Source: Krasilnikoviella flava | GTDB lineage: Bacteria; Actinomycetota; Actinomycetes; Actinomycetales; Cellulomonadaceae | DNA length: 64,000 nt | Reading direction: 5' to 3' | Assembly: GCF_900167525.1 (NCBI RefSeq) | Contig: NZ_FUZQ01000005.1 | Span: 186,001 to 250,000, forward strand | In this document: piece after piece, positions 56,543-64,000 of the stretch | How positions within the stretch are numbered: position 1 is the first letter of the stretch | How the letters are laid out: each line of letters opens with the position of its first letter | Notes under the pieces: model-generated | The model's database searches: none | What the model saw: only the letters and a program-made list of their open reading frames with translations | Told to the model about the DNA's origin: nothing | Position numbers and translations under genes: made by a program

Positions 56543-57288
56543 CGTCCCCGCTCCTCCCCGACGTCCCGCGACCCGTCGCCGGCCGCACCGTCCCTCTCGT
56601 CCACACCGTCCGCGTCGTCCGCGTCGTCCATGTCGTCATCGCTCACCGGCTCCGCCCCCGCAGCGCGAAGGAGCCGGGCCGCCAGCGGACGGACCGCCGC
56701 ATCCTCGGCCCACAGGGCCGCTCGCAGCCGCTGGCTCACCGCCTGCTCGCTCACCCTCAGCACCGCCGCCGACGCGCGCTGCGGGGCGGGGCCCCGCTGA
56801 GCGACGAGCGTATCCACCGCCTCCCACCCGGCCGGGGATCGGCGCGCGACGACTGCCCCCAACAGGTGCAGCAGCGCCTGCGCGTCGGCGGCGACCGTGG
56901 CTCGCGGCTCCTCGTCCGGGCCCACCACGGCGACGGGCACGCTCCCCCGCCCACGCCGCCTCGCCCGCTCAACGGCGGTCCGCGCCCGGACGAACGCCGG
57001 CCCAGACGCCGCCCGCGACGCGGCCGGGAGCGGCCGGACGACGCCGCCGAGGCCGATCCCGACGGACCAGCCGCCGTCCCGCACGAGTTCGAGCACCAGG
57101 TCGACGGTGAGCGCGGCGCCGTCGTCGGTGGCGTCGAGCACCCCCTGGACCTCGTCGCCGACCGTGCGGTCGAACGGGAGCACGACCCCCGGCCGCGCGG
57201 CCGACCGTGCGGCGACGATCGCGAGGGCCTCGGGCACGCGGTCGACACCGCGCCGGCTCCCTCGCTGGTCCGCTGTCACGACGATCAT
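56539..57288 (-). CDS. SatD-like protein
   Basis: 249 residues. [22 protein letters not shown] and [16 protein letters not shown] follow the SatD pattern, where an N-terminal nucleotide-cyclase-like fold is suspected; [14 protein letters not shown] continues it. [18 protein letters not shown] (about 178-195) looks like a helix-turn-helix. A very acidic tail ([18 protein letters not shown]) ends the protein. S. mutans satD is in an acid-tolerance operon; function otherwise unclear. Leaderless start. Confidence 0.65.
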
Positions 57289-57294
57289 CGCTCA

Positions 57295-57300
57295 AGGCTA
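57295..57300 (-). promoter_or_regulatory. -10 element of leaderless SatD-like operon
   Basis: TAGCCT, 6 bases before ATG 57288. Confidence 0.5.
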
Positions 57301-57372
57301 GACGCTTGTGATGCCCAATTCAACGCTCCGCCCTTGCTTTTCCTCAAGGCCTCACGCTGGACGGTGCGCTCT

Positions 57373-57819
57373 TCAGCTCTGCAGCTTGTGCTTCAGCGCG
57401 CTCAGGGCCAGTCGGTAGGAGTCGAAGCCAAAGCCGGCGACCGTCCCCGTCGCGATCCCGGCGACCACCGAGTAGTGCCGGAACGACTCCCGCGAGGCCG
57501 GGTTCGACAGATGCACCTCGACCAGCAGCAGACCCGACGTCGTGACCTGCGCGGCCGCGTCGCGCAGGGCGTAGCTGTAGTGGGTGAACGCCGCCGGGTT
57601 CAGGACGACGTGCGCGCGGGCGTCGACCGCCTCGTGCAGCCAGCCCACGAGCTCGGACTCGTCGTCCGTCTGGCGCACGTCGACCGTGACACCCAGCTCG
57701 CTCCCCCAGACCGCGGCCTCGCGCTCGAGGTCGGCCATGGACGCGTGGCCGTAGATCTCGGGCTCGCGCACGCCGAGCCGACCGAGGTTGGGACCGTTGA
57801 GGACGAGGACGTGAGTCAT
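57373..57819 (-). CDS. aroQ: type II 3-dehydroquinate dehydratase
   Basis: 148 residues. VLNGPNLGRLGVREPEIYGH (active-site loop with Arg and Tyr), RQTDDESELVGWLHEA, LNPAAFTHYSYALRDAA and VEVHLSNPASRE (catalytic His) are diagnostic. Third step of the shikimate pathway. Leaderless start at ATG 57819. Confidence 0.95.
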   Translation of the reverse strand: MTHVLVLNGPNLGRLGVREPEIYGHASMADLEREAAVWGSELGVTVDVRQTDDESELVGWLHEAVDARAHVVLNPAAFTHYSYALRDAAAQVTTSGLLLVEVHLSNPASRESFRHYSVVAGIATGTVAGFGFDSYRLALSALKHKLQS

Positions 57820-57825
57820 GGCCCG

Positions 57826-57831
57826 AGGGTA
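57826..57831 (-). promoter_or_regulatory. -10 element of leaderless aroQ
   Basis: TACCCT, 6 bases before ATG 57819. Confidence 0.5.
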
Positions 57832-57914
57832 CGGCGGCACCCGCGCCGGCGTCCCCGGCGTCCGCCCCGCCGGCCATGCCGGGCCGCGCCGGACGAGACC
57901 GCCCTGGCCGCCTC

Positions 57915-58394
57915 CTACTCCGGCTCGTCGACGAGCAGCCGGCGCGGACCGGGGCCGTCGTGGCCGAGCGCGTCGTGGGGGTTGGCCAGCACGCACCGGC
58001 TCAGGGACAGGCACCCGCAACCGATGCAGTCGGTGAGGTCGTCGCGCAGGCGCTCGAGCTGCTCGATCCGCGCGTCGAGGTCCGTGCGCCAGGCCTTGGA
58101 CAGGCGTTCCCAGTCGCGGACGTTCGGCGCGCGGTCGGCGGGCAGGGTCCCGAGCGCCTCGGCGATCCGCGCGAGCGGGATCCCGACCCGCTGCGAGACC
58201 CGGATGAACGACACCCGGCGCAGGACGTCGCGCCGGTACCGGCGCTGGTTGCCCGACGTGCGACGGCTGGCGATGAGCCCGCGCCGCTCGTAGAAGTGGA
58301 GCGCGGAAACGGCGACGCCGCTGCGCGCGGCCACCTCCCCCACGGTGAGCTCGACGTGGTCCCACGCGACCCTCTCGGGCGCCTGCTCCGGCAC
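57915..58394 (-). CDS. soxR: redox-sensing [2Fe-2S] regulator SoxR
   Basis: 159-residue MerR-family protein. Helix-turn-helix [24 protein letters not shown], dimerisation helix, and the SoxR cluster [12 protein letters not shown] with Cys123, 126, 128 and 134. In actinobacteria SoxR responds to redox-active metabolites and controls a few reductases or exporters rather than soxS. It is divergent from a quinone-reductase-like gene and shares its operator. Confidence 0.95.
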
Positions 58395-58418
58395 GGTGCT
58401 CGTCCTTCCGTCGACCTA

Positions 58419-58449
58419 TTGACCTGAACCATAGTTCAGGTCCCAGCAT
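58419..58449 (+). promoter_or_regulatory. SoxR operator and target promoter
   Basis: Palindrome GACCTGAAC/GTTCAGGTC with CATA centre (58421-58442), lying between TTGACC (58419-58424) and CAGCAT (58444-58449). The 19-base spacing is the long spacer typical of MerR/SoxR-activated promoters. The target's ATG is at 58456, so the transcript is leaderless. Confidence 0.8.
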
Positions 58450-58455
58450 GGCGGC

Positions 58456-59466
58456 ATGGACGCCATCCGCCACCACAGCTTCGGCCCGCCCGAGACCCTC
58501 GTCCTCGAGCAGGTCCCCGACCCCGAACCCGGTCCGGGCCAGGTGCTCGTCGCCGCCCGCGCGCACGGCGTGCACCTGCTGGACACCACGCTGCGCCGCG
58601 GCGAGGACTCCGGCCCGTTGCCGCTGCCCGCACTGCCTGCGATCCCCGGGCGCGAGGTCGCCGGCACGGTGGTCGCCGTCGGACCGGACGTCGACGGGTC
58701 GTGGCTCGGCGCCCGGGTCGCCGCACACCTCGGCGCCATCCCGGACGGCGGCGGGTACGCGCGCCTCGCCGCCGCGCCGGTGGGGTCGCTGCACCGGCTG
58801 CCCGAGCGGCTCGGCCTCGCGGAGGCCGTCGCCATGATCGGCACCGGCCGGATGGCCCTCATGACGCTGGAGGTCGCGCAGCCGGGCCCCGACGACGTCG
58901 TCGTGCTCACCGCCGCAGCCGGCGGGCTCGGCTCCCTGTTCGTGCAGTCGGCCCTCGGCGCCGGCGCACGCGTGCTCGCGCTGGCCGGCGGACCGCGCAA
59001 GGTCCGGGCCGTGCGCGGGCTCGTGCCCGACGCCGGGCACCGGGTCGCCGTCGTCGACGTGGACGCACCCGGCTGGCCTGCCGACGCACGCACCGCGCTC
59101 GGTCGGCTGCACGCCGGCGCCGCGACCATCCTGATCGACGGCGTCGGCGGTGAGCTGGGCGCCGAGGCGGCCGCGCTGCTCGGCCCCGGCGGGCGGCTCG
59201 TCGTGCAGGGCTGGGCGTCGGGACTCCCCAACCCCGTGGCCGCGAGCGCCGTCACACCGGACGGCGACCCGGTCGAGGTGCGCGCCGTCGTCGGCCCGGG
59301 CGGGCCGCGGTTCGGCGACCTGCGCGAGTACCAGCGCCGGGCCCTGGAGCGTGCCGCGTCGGGCTCGTGGCGGGTCCTGACCCACCGGGTGGCGTTCGCG
59401 GAGGCCGCCAGGGCGCACCGGGAGCTCGAGGAGCGCCGCACGGTGGGCAAGGTCGTCCTCGGGTGA
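58456..59466 (+). CDS. zinc-type alcohol dehydrogenase-like/NADPH:quinone reductase family protein
   Basis: 336-residue MDR protein without structural zinc Cys. RHHSFGPPETLVLEQVPDPEPGPGQVLV, PALPAIPGREVAGTVVAVG and the nucleotide site LTAAAGGLGSLFVQSALGAGARVLAL are typical. Family members reduce quinones or enoyl compounds with NADPH. The SoxR-type promoter directly upstream identifies it as a likely SoxR target. Confidence 0.9.
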   Translation: MDAIRHHSFGPPETLVLEQVPDPEPGPGQVLVAARAHGVHLLDTTLRRGEDSGPLPLPALPAIPGREVAGTVVAVGPDVDGSWLGARVAAHLGAIPDGGGYARLAAAPVGSLHRLPERLGLAEAVAMIGTGRMALMTLEVAQPGPDDVVVLTAAAGGLGSLFVQSALGAGARVLALAGGPRKVRAVRGLVPDAGHRVAVVDVDAPGWPADARTALGRLHAGAATILIDGVGGELGAEAAALLGPGGRLVVQGWASGLPNPVAASAVTPDGDPVEVRAVVGPGGPRFGDLREYQRRALERAASGSWRVLTHRVAFAEAARAHRELEERRTVGKVVLG

Positions 59467-59494
59467 CCGCCGTCGCAGGTGCCGGGCGCGGACC

Positions 59495-59521
59495 GGTCAC
59501 GAATGCTCTCGCATTCCCGTC
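59495..59521 (+). promoter_or_regulatory. ECF41-type promoter of the FAD oxidase gene
   Basis: GGTCACG (59495-59501), 16 bases, CGTC (59518-59521). Same layout as the sigma gene's own promoter at 61466-61492 and close to the TGTCACA/CGTC consensus I recall for ECF41. The spacer contains a GAATGC/GCATTC palindrome (59501-59516). Confidence 0.55.
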
Positions 59522-59559
59522 GGGTGTACGGGATGCTGCCGATGAGGACGGCGTCCCGG

Positions 59560-59591
59560 CACGGTCCACCTGAGACACGGTCCACCTGAGA
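59560..59591. repeat. 16-bp tandem direct repeat in the leader of the FAD oxidase gene
   Basis: CACGGTCCACCTGAGA occurs twice without a gap, about 90-120 bases upstream of the ATG at 59681 and downstream of the ECF41-type promoter. Confidence 0.8.
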
Positions 59592-59680
59592 GCAGCACCC
59601 GCACGTCCGCACGCACCGGGCCTGCACGTCGGCCCGCACCCCACCCCCCTGCACGGTCGTCCCCCCGACGAGGAGCCCCG

Positions 59681-61081
59681 ATGTCCCTGTCCTCGAATCC
59701 CCACACGTCCTCCGTCTCACCCGCCGGGCTGCGCGCCGCGCTCGGCGAGTCCTCGCCCGTCGTCACCCCCCAGGACGAGGGCTACGCCGCCGCCCGGGCG
59801 ATCGAGCCCGGCGGCGTCGACCACCGCCCCGCGGCCGTCGTGCGCCCGGCCGACACCCAGGGTGTGGCCCGCGCCGTGCACCTCGCTCACGACGCGGGGG
59901 CCGAGGTGTCCGTACGGGCGGGCGGGCACTCGGTGTTCGGCCTGGGCGCCGCCGACGGCGCCGTCACGCTCGACCTGCGCGGCCTGGACGGCATCGAGCT
60001 CGACGTCGACGGGCGGACCGCCTGGGCCGGCGGCGGCATCACGGCGGGAGCGTACTCGCGCGCCGCCGGCGAGCACGGCCTCGCGACCCCGTTCGGCGAC
60101 ACCGGCACGGTGGGCGTCGGCGGCATCACGCTGGGCGGCGGGGTCGGGCTGCTCTCGCGCTCCCTCGGCATGACCATCGACAGCCTGCTCGGCGCCGAGG
60201 TCGTCACCGCCGACGGCCAGGTGGTCCTCACGGACGCCGACCGCGAGCCCGACCTGTTCTGGGCGTTGCGCGGCGGAGGCGGGAACTTCGGTGTCGTGAC
60301 CCGGTTCCGCTTCGCCCTGCACGAGGTGTCGCAGGTGGTGGGCGGGGTGCTCCTCATGCCGGCCACCGCGGCGAGCATCGCCGGCGTCGTCGCGGCGGCC
60401 GACGCCGCCCCGGCCGGGCTGACCGTCATCGCCATGGTGATGACGGCGCCGCCGATGCCGATGGTCCCCGCCGAGTGGCACGGGCGCGTGGTCGTGATGG
60501 CCAACACCTGCTGGTCCGGCCCGCTCGACGAGGCCGACACGGCCCTCGCGCCCCTGCGCGACGTCGCCGCCCGCGCGGGCGGCGCGCTGCTCGACGGCCT
60601 GCGGACCGCGCCCTACTCCACCCTGCTGGAGGGCGGGCCGCCCGGCGGGCCGGTCGTTGCGACGGGGCGCACGTTCTTCGCCGACGGCGTCGACGAGGCA
60701 GCGGCCGCGCACCTGCTGGAGCAGCTGCAGAGCTCCGACGCGATGATGCGCGCGGCGCAGCTGCGCGTGCTGGGCGGCGCGGTGGCGGACGTCCCTTCGG
60801 ACGCGACGGCGTACGCGCACCGCGCCGCTCGCGTCGTCGGCAACGTCGCGGCCGTGGCGCCGGACGCGGCGACCGCCCGCGGCTACCGCCCCTGGGTGGA
60901 TGCGCTGGCCGACCGGCTGCGCGGCGGCGACGGCGCGTACGTGAACTTCAGCCTCGACGGCGGCCTCGACACCGCGCGGGCCGCCTACCCGGGCGCCACG
61001 TGGGACCGGCTGCGCGCGGTCAAGCGGCGCTGGGACCCGCAGAACCTGTTCCGCGGCAACGTCAACGTGCCTCCCGCCTAG
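59681..61081 (+). CDS. FAD-linked (BBE-type) oxidoreductase
   Basis: 466 residues of the VAO/berberine-bridge family. VSVRAGGHSVFGLG carries the His that links FAD covalently; GVGGITLGGGVGLLSRSLG lacks the second (Cys) link. RGGGGNFGVVTRFRF, and YVNFSLDGG with the C-terminal WDPQNLFRGNVNVPP, are typical. Oxidises sugars, alkaloids or related alcohols with oxygen. ATG 59681 has AGGAG 5 bases upstream. Confidence 0.9.
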   Translation: MSLSSNPHTSSVSPAGLRAALGESSPVVTPQDEGYAAARAIEPGGVDHRPAAVVRPADTQGVARAVHLAHDAGAEVSVRAGGHSVFGLGAADGAVTLDLRGLDGIELDVDGRTAWAGGGITAGAYSRAAGEHGLATPFGDTGTVGVGGITLGGGVGLLSRSLGMTIDSLLGAEVVTADGQVVLTDADREPDLFWALRGGGGNFGVVTRFRFALHEVSQVVGGVLLMPATAASIAGVVAAADAAPAGLTVIAMVMTAPPMPMVPAEWHGRVVVMANTCWSGPLDEADTALAPLRDVAARAGGALLDGLRTAPYSTLLEGGPPGGPVVATGRTFFADGVDEAAAAHLLEQLQSSDAMMRAAQLRVLGGAVADVPSDATAYAHRAARVVGNVAAVAPDAATARGYRPWVDALADRLRGGDGAYVNFSLDGGLDTARAAYPGATWDRLRAVKRRWDPQNLFRGNVNVPPA

Positions 61082-61091
61082 CCGGCGGTCG

Positions 61092-61445
61092 TCAGCGCGC
61101 CCGCGCGTCGATCTCGTCGCGGCGGGCCGCCACGATCCGGTCGAGGACGTCGTCGGGCAGGGGCGAGTCGGGCTGGAAGGAGACGGACCCCTTGGTGGTG
61201 CGGAAGCCCTGCAGCTCGTCCGCGAGCGCCGTGATCACGTCCGGGCTGAACGGGTAGACGCCCAGGTGCGTGCGGGTCACCATCACGCTCACCAGGGGGC
61301 TGCCGCGGTAGCGCAGGGCGGGCATGCCGTAGCTGCGCCCCTCCTCGACGCCGGGCACGAGCGCGCGGGCGCGTTCGTACACGCGCGCCACCGCGTCGCG
61401 TTCCGGCCCGGACAGGGTGGTCAGGTAGTCCTCGACGTCTCCCAC
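61092..61445 (-). CDS. DUF1801/YdhG-like protein
   Basis: 117 residues. VEDYLTTLSGPERDAVARVYERARALVPGVEEGRSYGMPALRYRGSPLVSV, HLGVYPFSPDVI and TTKGSVSFQPDSPLPDDVLDRIV are the DUF1801 (YdhG-like) pattern, relatives of which include a Bacillus iron chaperone. GTG 61445 is used. It is divergent from the sigma gene and ends 10 bases from the FAD oxidase stop. Confidence 0.8.
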   Translation of the reverse strand: MGDVEDYLTTLSGPERDAVARVYERARALVPGVEEGRSYGMPALRYRGSPLVSVMVTRTHLGVYPFSPDVITALADELQGFRTTKGSVSFQPDSPLPDDVLDRIVAARRDEIDARAR

Positions 61446-61465
61446 CGACCCATCGTGCGTCCCGA

Positions 61466-61492
61466 CGTCACGTCGCGCCACGCCGCGTCGTC
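61466..61492 (+). promoter_or_regulatory. ECF41-type autoregulatory promoter
   Basis: CGTCACG (61466-61472), 16 bases, CGTC (61489-61492), 43 bases before the sigma factor ATG. Confidence 0.5.
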
Positions 61493-61534
61493 GGAGTACG
61501 GGGCGGAGAGCCCGCCCCGCGGAAGGATGGCAGC

Positions 61535-62590
61535 ATGCGACGCACGGACAGCCCCGCACGCCGACGCCCCGCGCGTGCGACGGAGGCGACCACCGACCTC
61601 GAGGACCTGCGCCGCGTCGCGTTCGGCGCCGCCTACCGCATGCTCGGCAGCGTCACGGAGGCCGAGGACGTCGCGCAGGAGGCCATGCTGCGCGTCGCCC
61701 CCGTGGGGGTCGTCGACGCGGCGGTCGTGAATCCGGCCGCGTACACCACGACGGTGGCGACGCGGATCGCGCTGGACGTGCTGCGCTCGGCACGGGTGCG
61801 GCGCGAGTCGTACGTGGGCGAGTGGGTGCCCGAGCCCCTCGTGGGCGACGTCGTGGCCGCGGGGTCGGCGGGCCGGGAGGCCGCCGCGCACGCGGAGCTG
61901 GCCGACGACCTGTCGACGGCGTTCCTCGTGCTGCTGGAGACCCTGACGCCGGCCGAGCGGGCGGCGTTCCTGCTGCACGACGTGTTCGGCTACCCGCACC
62001 GCGAGTCGGCGCAGGTGATCGGCACGACGGAGCTGGCGGCCCGGCAGCTCGCGTCGCGGGCCCGGCGCAGGGTCGCGGCCCGGCAGGACGCTGCGGCGGA
62101 GGGCCGGGCGGTCCGGCCCGACCCGCACGCCCAGGAGCTGGTGCGGCGGTTCATCGCGGCGACCGAGGAGGGCGACGTCGATGCCCTGGTGGAGCTGCTC
62201 GCGGACGACGTGGCGCTCACCGGCGACAGCGGGGGCAACGTCCCGGTGGGGCTGGCGGTGTCGCGCCCGGTCTCGGGGAACGTGGCGGTCGCCCGGCTGC
62301 TGTCGGGGTTCGCCCGCCGGTCCGCGCCGGCGCGCATCGAGGCAGCCGTGGTCAACGGCGGGCCGGGCATGATCGCGTACGCCGACGCGTCCGTGGGCGG
62401 CGGCGTCATCGGCACGTACGCCCTGCAGGTCGCGGACGGCCGCATCACACGGATCGACGGGGTCATCAACCCGGAGAAGCTGCGACACCTGGCGCCGCTG
62501 GCCGACCTGGAGGCCGTGGCCGCCGCGCTCAAGGGCGCGGGGCGGCGCCGTCGGGCCGCGCAGGCTCCCGACGTCCCACCGTCACCTTGA
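61535..62590 (+). CDS. ECF41/SigJ-type sigma factor with fused SnoaL domain
   Basis: 351 residues. Region 2 RVAFGAAYRMLGSVTEAEDVAQEAML (about 28-53), region 4 LVLLETLTPAERAAFLLHDVFGYPHRESAQVIG, then a SnoaL-like regulatory domain (RRFIAATEEGDVDALVELLADDVALTGDSGG) ending with VINPEKLRHL, the NPxKL motif of ECF41. The C-terminal domain controls activity in cis instead of an anti-sigma factor. ATG 61535 has GGAAGG 8 bases upstream. Overlaps the MFS gene tail-to-tail by 62 bases. Confidence 0.93.
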   Translation: MRRTDSPARRRPARATEATTDLEDLRRVAFGAAYRMLGSVTEAEDVAQEAMLRVAPVGVVDAAVVNPAAYTTTVATRIALDVLRSARVRRESYVGEWVPEPLVGDVVAAGSAGREAAAHAELADDLSTAFLVLLETLTPAERAAFLLHDVFGYPHRESAQVIGTTELAARQLASRARRRVAARQDAAAEGRAVRPDPHAQELVRRFIAATEEGDVDALVELLADDVALTGDSGGNVPVGLAVSRPVSGNVAVARLLSGFARRSAPARIEAAVVNGGPGMIAYADASVGGGVIGTYALQVADGRITRIDGVINPEKLRHLAPLADLEAVAAALKGAGRRRRAAQAPDVPPSP

Positions 62591-63995
62591 GCATGAGCAG
62601 CAGGCCGGCGAGGATCACCGCGACGATGCCGAGCGTGCCCCAGATGGTGGCGCCCGTGAGGGCGACCAGGAGCGTCCACATCGACGGGGCGAGGAACGAC
62701 ACCGCGCGGCCGGTCGTCGCGTAGAGGCCGAAGATCTCCGACTCGCGACCGACCGGGGCGACCCGGGCGAGCAGCGAGCGGGACGCCGCCTGCGCGGGGC
62801 CGACGAAGCACGTGAGGGCGAGGCCGGCCGCCCAGAACACGGCCGGCCCGAGCGGGTGCAGCCCCACCACGAGCAGGCCGCAGACCACGAGGCCGCTCAG
62901 GGCGCCGACGATGACCGCCCGCGGGCCGAACCGGTCATCGAGCCGCCCGGCGAGGATCGTGCTCAGGCCGGCGAGCAGGTTGGCGGCGATGCCGAACACC
63001 ATCACGGCGTTGTCGCCGAACCGGAACGACACCGCGGCGATGACGGCGCCGAAGGTGAAGACGGCGGACAGCCCGTCGCGGTAGACGGCGCTCGCGAGCA
63101 GGAACCAGAACGTGGGCCGCTCGTGCCGGTAGAGGGCCCGGACGTCGCGCACGAGGACGGCGTACCCGGCGAAGAAACCGACCCGCGGGCGGTCGGTCGC
63201 GGGCGGGGCCTCGGGCACGTAGCGGAACAGCGGCCAGGCGAACGCGACGGCCCACAGGGCGCAGCCGAGGGCGATCACCCGGTAGGCGAGCCCGTCGTCG
63301 GTGGGCATGCCCCACCAGTCGAACGTCGTCGCGACCACGACGGCCACGAGCGCGACGATCCCGCCCAGGTATCCGAGCCCCCAGCCGAGGCCGGACACCC
63401 GGCCGACGGTGGCCCGCGTGGAGACCTGCACGAGCATGGCGTTGTAGTTCACGCCCGCGATCTCGCTCGCGACGCTGCCGAGGGAGACGAGGGCCGCGCC
63501 CAGCACGAACCACGCCGGGTCCGCGCGGACCGCGAACAGGGCGGCCATGCAGGCGACCATCAGCAGGGTCGCGCCGCCCACCCACGCCTTGCGGCGGCCC
63601 TCGACGTCGGCGCGGCGCCCCAGCACGGGCGCGAGCGCGGCGACGAGGAGGCCACCGATCGTGATCCACAGTCCCAGCCCGCTCGTGAGGCCGGCGAGGG
63701 CTCGCTCGTGCACCGGGTCCGTCGCCGGGAGGGCCGCCACCTCGGCCTGCAGGAAGTCGTCGCTGGTGAGGTACAGCGCCGTGAAGACGAACGTGACGAT
63801 CACCGTGTTGAACGGCTGCGTCGCCCAGTCCCACATCGCCCAGGAGACCACCTGACGTCGCGGCACCGGTGCCGCGGCGGCGGCCGGCGGCGTCGCGTCG
63901 TCGTGCCGGGAGCCGTGCGGCTGCGGGGTGCCGGGGGCGGCATGGGTGCCGGCACGGTGTCCGGTGGGGTCCGGCACTGCCGGGCGGTCGCTCAT
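62529..63995 (-). CDS. MFS transporter (UMF1/Atg22-like)
   Basis: 488 residues. A Pro/Ala/His-rich N-terminus of about 45 residues precedes twelve predicted helices. WAMWDWATQPFNTVIVTFVFTALYL, the loop APVLGRRADVEGRRKAWV and the VGPAQAASRSLLARVAPVGRESEIFGLYA segment are the UMF1/Atg22 family pattern. It probably exports amino acids or other small molecules. ATG 63995 is near the window edge. Its last 20 codons lie opposite the end of the sigma gene. Confidence 0.9.
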   Translation of the reverse strand: MSDRPAVPDPTGHRAGTHAAPGTPQPHGSRHDDATPPAAAAAPVPRRQVVSWAMWDWATQPFNTVIVTFVFTALYLTSDDFLQAEVAALPATDPVHERALAGLTSGLGLWITIGGLLVAALAPVLGRRADVEGRRKAWVGGATLLMVACMAALFAVRADPAWFVLGAALVSLGSVASEIAGVNYNAMLVQVSTRATVGRVSGLGWGLGYLGGIVALVAVVVATTFDWWGMPTDDGLAYRVIALGCALWAVAFAWPLFRYVPEAPPATDRPRVGFFAGYAVLVRDVRALYRHERPTFWFLLASAVYRDGLSAVFTFGAVIAAVSFRFGDNAVMVFGIAANLLAGLSTILAGRLDDRFGPRAVIVGALSGLVVCGLLVVGLHPLGPAVFWAAGLALTCFVGPAQAASRSLLARVAPVGRESEIFGLYATTGRAVSFLAPSMWTLLVALTGATIWGTLGIVAVILAGLLLMLKVTVGRREPARPDGAAPRP

Positions 63996-64000
63996 GAGGC

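Follow-up and report, generated by a model that had tools for sequence, protein, structure and literature searches.

A predicted autoregulated ECF41 sigma factor unit with a FAD oxidase partner in Krasilnikoviella flava

We describe a sigma factor gene and a neighbouring FAD oxidase gene in a 64,000-nucleotide stretch of DNA from the soil actinobacterium Krasilnikoviella flava (contig NZ_FUZQ01000005.1, positions 186,001 to 250,000; hereafter the window, whose own numbering is used throughout). By its domains and sequence motifs, the product of the gene at 61535 is a stress sigma factor of the extracytoplasmic function (ECF) type, belonging to the ECF41 group and SigJ-like. Two GTCAC[AG]-N16-CGTC sites, one before this gene and one before the oxidase gene, are very probably promoters of the neighbouring sigma factor. 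We thus read the locus, with considerable confidence, as an ECF41 unit that would activate both its own gene and the FAD oxidase through these two sites, the oxidase being a target of the COE type (carboxymuconolactone decarboxylase, oxidoreductase or epimerase).

The sigma factor and its two candidate promoters

61535..62590, forward strand: ECF41-group (SigJ-like) sigma factor with a fused SnoaL_2 domain (Sigma70_r2, Sigma70_r4_2 and SnoaL_2 matches; NF007214; PDB 5xe7)
61466..61492, forward strand: predicted ECF41-type promoter of the sigma gene (from sequence; N16 site in 9/9 complete loci and in the G005 fragment)
59681..61081, forward strand: FAD_binding_4/BBE oxidase, predicted COE-type target (Pfam FAD_binding_4 4.2e-27, BBE 7.4e-08)
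59495..59521, forward strand: predicted ECF41-type promoter of the oxidase gene (from sequence; same N16 site in 8/9 sigma-bearing relatives and in 0/4 without a syntenic sigma)

The assignment of the sigma factor to ECF41, already made by the first-pass annotation, agrees with its domains, its nearest solved structure and its linker and extension motifs. The profile scores are divided: the protein reaches 282.5 bits against the NF007214 SigJ profile, above the cut-off of 271, and 262.3 against the SigX4 profile, below the cut-off of 323.25. Its best solved relative is SigJ (PDB 5xe7, 5.8e-51, residues 18-322). The SnoaL_2 match lies at about 62141-62452. In the linker between sigma2 and sigma4, the window's sigma factor and that of G010 have WVPEP and that of G013 has WIPEP, with WLPEP in the other complete homologues aligned. 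The SnoaL extension keeps GDSGGN/GDGGGN (or K in the last position) together with NP[ED]KL in the complete homologues aligned, which we take to be the conserved ECF41 extension motifs known as DGGGR and NPDKL (the latter name was sought in one review and not found there). No anti-sigma gene was found among the neighbours scanned, namely the DUF1801 gene, the MFS protein and the oxidase.

The bipartite motif is present with identical N16 spacing before both genes, as first described. On the forward strand, GGTCACG-N16-CGTC at 59495-59521 is separated by 159 bases from the oxidase ATG (59681), and CGTCACG-N16-CGTC at 61466-61492 by 42 bases from the sigma ATG (61535). We infer that both sites are recognised by the neighbouring sigma factor, in which the fused SnoaL domain would take the place of an anti-sigma factor. 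On a signal, RNA polymerase carrying the ECF41 sigma would start at the site before the sigma gene, giving positive feedback, and the same sigma would start transcription of the FAD oxidase gene from the site that precedes it, 1.85 kb upstream. That the SnoaL domain mediates activation is suggested by analogy with the ECF41 members of B. licheniformis and R. sphaeroides, in which such activation has been studied.

The spacer of the oxidase site also contains a GAATGC-TCTC-GCATTC palindrome (59501-59516), an inverted repeat of six bases with a four-base loop that had been proposed to bind a second regulator. It occurs in only 1/9 upstream regions and is absent even from the nearest relative, whose oxidase is 84% identical, so that an operator here is extremely improbable and we do not retain the proposal.

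Conservation of the sites and of the oxidase-sigma pair

The conservation analysis covers 18 genomes of the genus, taken to be Isoptericola, with orthologues defined by at least 71% identity for the sigma factor and at least 58% for the oxidase. A sigma orthologue is present in ten of them, and all nine complete sigma-bearing loci have the oxidase followed by the sigma gene on the same strand. The same order is found in G005, where the assembly is broken: the oxidase, the DUF1801 gene and the first part of the sigma gene, after which the sequence diverges, lie on one contig and the rest on another. Three genomes (G007, G008 and G011) have an oxidase orthologue without a sigma orthologue, and five have neither gene; over the 18 genomes this co-occurrence gives a Fisher p of 0.007 with kinship ignored. 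Similarly, G020, from another genus of the same family, has the oxidase without a syntenic sigma. The closest named loci are those of Isoptericola sp. 4D.3 and I. luteus.

We searched for GTCAC[AG]-N16-CGTC in the 320 bases upstream of the oxidase and the 200 bases upstream of the sigma gene. The motif precedes the sigma gene in 9/9 complete loci, and also in the G005 fragment, and it precedes the oxidase in 8/9 sigma-bearing loci and 0/4 loci without a syntenic sigma. It is this restriction of the oxidase site to loci with a syntenic sigma, across 13 complete loci, that makes the two sites very probably promoters of that sigma, and the promoter assignment of the first-pass annotation is thereby upheld. 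Of 17 other spacings between 8 and 25, none matches in more than two regions, and in 2000 dinucleotide shuffles of each upstream set never more than two did. The spacers have diverged among the relatives (mean 0.81 and 0.99 bits; only spacer values are used, as the motif columns stand near 2 bits by construction, the sequences having been selected with the pattern), a sign that recent common descent is not the whole reason for their presence. At the same place in G011, which has no syntenic sigma, an apparently decayed promoter can be made out by eye.

Related arrangements are found beyond these loci. In G047, from another family of the order, the oxidase gene and, next to it, the sigma gene follow one another on the same strand, and GGTCACA-N16-CGTC precedes the oxidase. 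A second, divergent pair is present both in the window's genome and in G013, consisting of an ECF41-type sigma and a FAD oxidase, with GGTCACA-N16-TGTC toward the oxidase; in the window's genome this paralogous pair, whose oxidase is of the FAD_binding_4 kind, lies on contig C2 (L130:3001-5371). Among the nine genomes common to both gene searches, six of 18 ECF41-type sigma matches are within 1 kb of a FAD oxidase of this kind.

Several observations weigh against the two sites being promoters of the neighbouring sigma. The oxidase region of G004 lacks the N16 site and has an N19 one instead, and the sampled genomes are related, so that the counts are not independent trials. Four distant sigma homologues within the genus (46-48% identity) have no upstream site, and of 16 homologues from the order (L103-L118, 44-60% identity) only 5 have so much as a relaxed motif in the 300 bases before the gene. 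No motif was found before the G047 sigma gene, nor in a divergent pair of that genome. The first and last -35 bases of both sites depart from TGTCACA. Finally, the bare pattern is at chance level in both the window and the genome: GTCACR-N15..18-CGTC has 6 matches in the window against a shuffle mean of 7.23, with 71 of 100 shuffles reaching 6, and the 4.85 Mb genome has 143 matches at N16 as compared with 144 at N13 and 124 at N19, two spacings that share the codon phase of N16.

N16 is not enriched genome-wide, and any regulon must be small; the case for promoters rests on conservation in related loci. The genome scan that the first-pass annotation had called for thus returned the chance frequency that it regarded as damaging, but for the bare pattern only, and conservation outweighs this result. 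Accidental matches in a GC-rich genome would account for the bare-pattern counts; they would hardly produce 9/9 and 8/9 occurrences at a single spacing when 17 other spacings and the shuffles never exceed two regions, and we regard chance as a very improbable origin of the two sites.

Alternatively, a different ECF41-type sigma of the window's genome could read the sites, in place of the neighbour or alongside it. Indeed, the window's genome holds three SigJ-type matches, the other ECF41-type sigmas being on contigs C10 and C2, and the promoter classes are similar. However, the oxidase site tracks the neighbouring sigma (8/9 versus 0/4) even though G007 and G008 keep a sigma homologue elsewhere in the genome (46% identity, not counted as an orthologue), and recognition by another sigma is rather improbable. 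We therefore retain the neighbouring sigma factor as the predicted regulator of both sites.

The oxidase and the SoxR-headed array

Against solved structures, the oxidase matches EncM best (2.2e-80) and then the mitomycin radical oxidase (6.2e-48), and it keeps the flavin-linking histidine of the GGHS motif. At the position of EncM Thr139, a numbering inferred from variant structures, all 13 oxidase orthologues aligned have Val. Because the T139V change gave oxidase activity in EncM (PMC7662398), ordinary oxidase chemistry appears more likely for this enzyme than flavin-N5-oxide chemistry.

Between the oxidase site and the oxidase gene lies a further conserved element:

59530..59567, forward strand: conserved block, predicted 5' end of the oxidase mRNA (alignable in the majority of orthologues of the oxidase)

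This leader block of about 40 bases has a consensus near GGGANGCTGNCGATGAG...CGGCACGGTCC and is also found in G020, G011 and G007, which have no syntenic sigma. It was considered as a small open reading frame and rejected, as the frame opened by its ATG ends at variable positions and, among the orthologues, its phase with respect to the oxidase gene takes all three values. No Rfam match was found in 57000-64000 at E up to 1. When a 28-base version was sought with at most three mismatches allowed, 2 of 118 related genomes had it, a test too strict for more diverged copies.

The pair stands at the end of an array whose other members in the window are as follows:

57915..58394, reverse strand: soxR, redox-sensing MerR-family regulator (TIGR01950 SoxR, 226.6 bits, cut-off 116.9)
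58419..58449, forward strand: predicted SoxR-type promoter between soxR and qor, TTGACC-N19-CAGCAT, containing a perfect 8-base dyad (from the neighbouring soxR and the SoxR consensus)
58456..59466, forward strand: qor, quinone-oxidoreductase-like, head of the array in the window's genome (ADH_N, ADH_zinc_N_2)
61092..61445, reverse strand: DUF1801 gene between oxidase and sigma, optional and not a target (PF08818, 5.5e-08)

The qor product scores 105.4 bits against TIGR02824 (PIG3 family), below the cut-off of 296.8. In its fullest form the locus runs aroQ, soxR, SoxR-type box, quinone oxidoreductase, drug-type MFS exporter (family assigned from the G014 copy), ECF41 promoter, oxidase, optional DUF1801, ECF41 promoter, sigma and MFS. 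Among the 13 complete loci, soxR is present in six, a full-length qor in seven and the exporter in eight; the window's genome has no exporter. Of the 10 sigma-bearing loci, the G005 fragment counted, 5 have DUF1801 between the two genes of the pair. A qor remnant (residues 1-70 only) between the SoxR-type box and the oxidase in G001 (L128) points to the loss of qor and the exporter in that lineage. In G007 and G011 (L121, L123), the place of the sigma after the oxidase is taken by an epimerase-like gene (PF01370) and a gene of the TetR family.

Of the 13 complete loci, 12 (all but G015) carry, upstream of the oxidase, a TTGACC-N19 box with SoxR-like half-sites. The 19-base MerR-family spacing and the SoxR half-site are what we take to be the consensus, with the box between soxR and qor here as internal reference. 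The box is the sole such match in the 12 loci, the G006 copy being weak (4 mismatches of 16). All four loci without a syntenic sigma retain it; in G007 and G008 it directly precedes the oxidase, and in G006 the SoxR-type and ECF41 promoters stand side by side.

This arrangement raises the possibility that the oxidase is mainly read through from the SoxR-type promoter before qor, the ECF41 site serving as a minor or conditional internal promoter. The position of the box at the head of the array in 12/13 complete loci, and directly before the oxidase in two, would fit such read-through, but 214 bases separate qor from the oxidase gene in the window's genome. The ECF41 site is moreover retained in 8/9 sigma-bearing loci, whereas a useless site should decay, as it apparently has in G011. 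We consider predominant read-through unlikely, though it has more in its favour than the alternatives above, and keep activation by the ECF41 sigma as the preferred account of the oxidase site.

The composition of the array also bears on what the sigma factor might sense. The array that ends with the pair includes soxR, a SoxR-type promoter, a quinone oxidoreductase and, in 8/13 complete loci, a drug-type MFS exporter, and the oxidase resembles EncM and the mitomycin radical oxidase; together these hint, weakly, that the ECF41 signal may be a redox-active or quinone-like compound. More speculatively still, the oxidase could be the junction of two redox controls, SoxR acting from the array head and the ECF41 sigma at the internal promoter, with the ECF41 signal belonging to the class of redox-active, quinone-like compounds sensed by SoxR or being a product of such a compound, and with loci lacking a syntenic sigma keeping only the SoxR-type promoter. 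We put this forward tentatively, as a possibility that is somewhat doubtful. As a general rule, a linkage of SoxR and ECF41 was rejected: with the sigma searched in the 48 SoxR-positive of 149 genomes, the two lie within 10 kb in 3 of the 32 genomes that have both, all three of this genus, and no linkage was seen outside it in this sample. A second SoxR-ECF41 neighbourhood was observed in G007 (L124:2337-5755), where genes for SoxR, for a Pyr_redox_2 oxidoreductase, for an ECF41 sigma and for an NmrA/NAD-binding protein succeed one another on one strand.

Comparison with known systems

On sequence evidence, the locus is well supported as an autoregulated ECF41 unit of known type with a FAD oxidase partner and a small departure in promoter layout. 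Among the entries found in the open-licence literature on ECF41, on SigJ/SoxR, on SnoaL-ECF-FAD and on Isoptericola sigmas (passages of PMC8999054 and PMC9205884 included), none describes it. The founding paper on ECF41 terms the signal of the group unknown (Wecke et al., 2012; PMC3426412). Having the sigma, its predicted oxidase target and their predicted promoters inside a SoxR-headed quinone/drug array offers a testable hint on that signal. Should redox cyclers turn out to induce the sigma, compounds of that class would become candidate ligands of the SnoaL domain; if not, the locus adds one more clear case of an ECF41 unit paired with a flavin oxidase.

As in the ECF41 COE loci described in that paper, the sigma factor here combines sigma2-sigma4 with a SnoaL extension and a linker of the type named there as WLPEP, no anti-sigma gene is seen adjoining, the predicted promoters are GTCAC-N16-CGTC, and a FAD_binding_4 oxidoreductase lies upstream on the same strand. 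The first-pass annotation had seen none of the usual COE partners next to the sigma gene and had concluded that an oxidase of the berberine-bridge type would represent a novel class of target. Both statements fall, because the COE oxidoreductases include FAD_binding_2/3/4 proteins (PMC3426412) and the oxidase has such a domain; its promoter claim stands.

The departures concern the promoters and the intervening gene. In the published loci, TGTCACA-N16-CGTC (spacer N16+/-1) is found in front of COE and ECF41 genes, and it was tested in two organisms; the COE-then-ECF order accounts for 107 of 373 ECF41 loci, 97 of which have the motif ahead of the COE gene (PMC3426412). Table 4 of the same paper gives no motif before the ECF gene in COE-then-ECF loci, a usual trait rather than a strict definition. 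Here, unlike in those loci, the motif also precedes the sigma gene, with or without an intervening DUF1801, and the -35 elements are GGTCACG or CGTCACG rather than TGTCACA, a partial match. A DUF1801 gene between oxidase and sigma likewise differs from the usual ECF41 COE locus.

Among individual systems, M. tuberculosis SigJ (PDB 5xe7) is the closest solved relative of the sigma by sequence and has the same domain order, in another organism and another neighbourhood. The oxidase is similar to EncM and the mitomycin radical oxidase over its whole length and shares the flavin-linking GGHS histidine, but differs from EncM in having Val in place of Thr139. The SoxR regulon of S. coelicolor includes a gene for a putative quinone oxidoreductase, which SoxR activates (PMC4146615). 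The array resembles that regulon in the SoxR-type box before a quinone oxidoreductase gene and in having redox enzymes as targets; it differs in that its SoxR site is predicted and in the addition of an ECF41 unit with its own predicted internal promoter.

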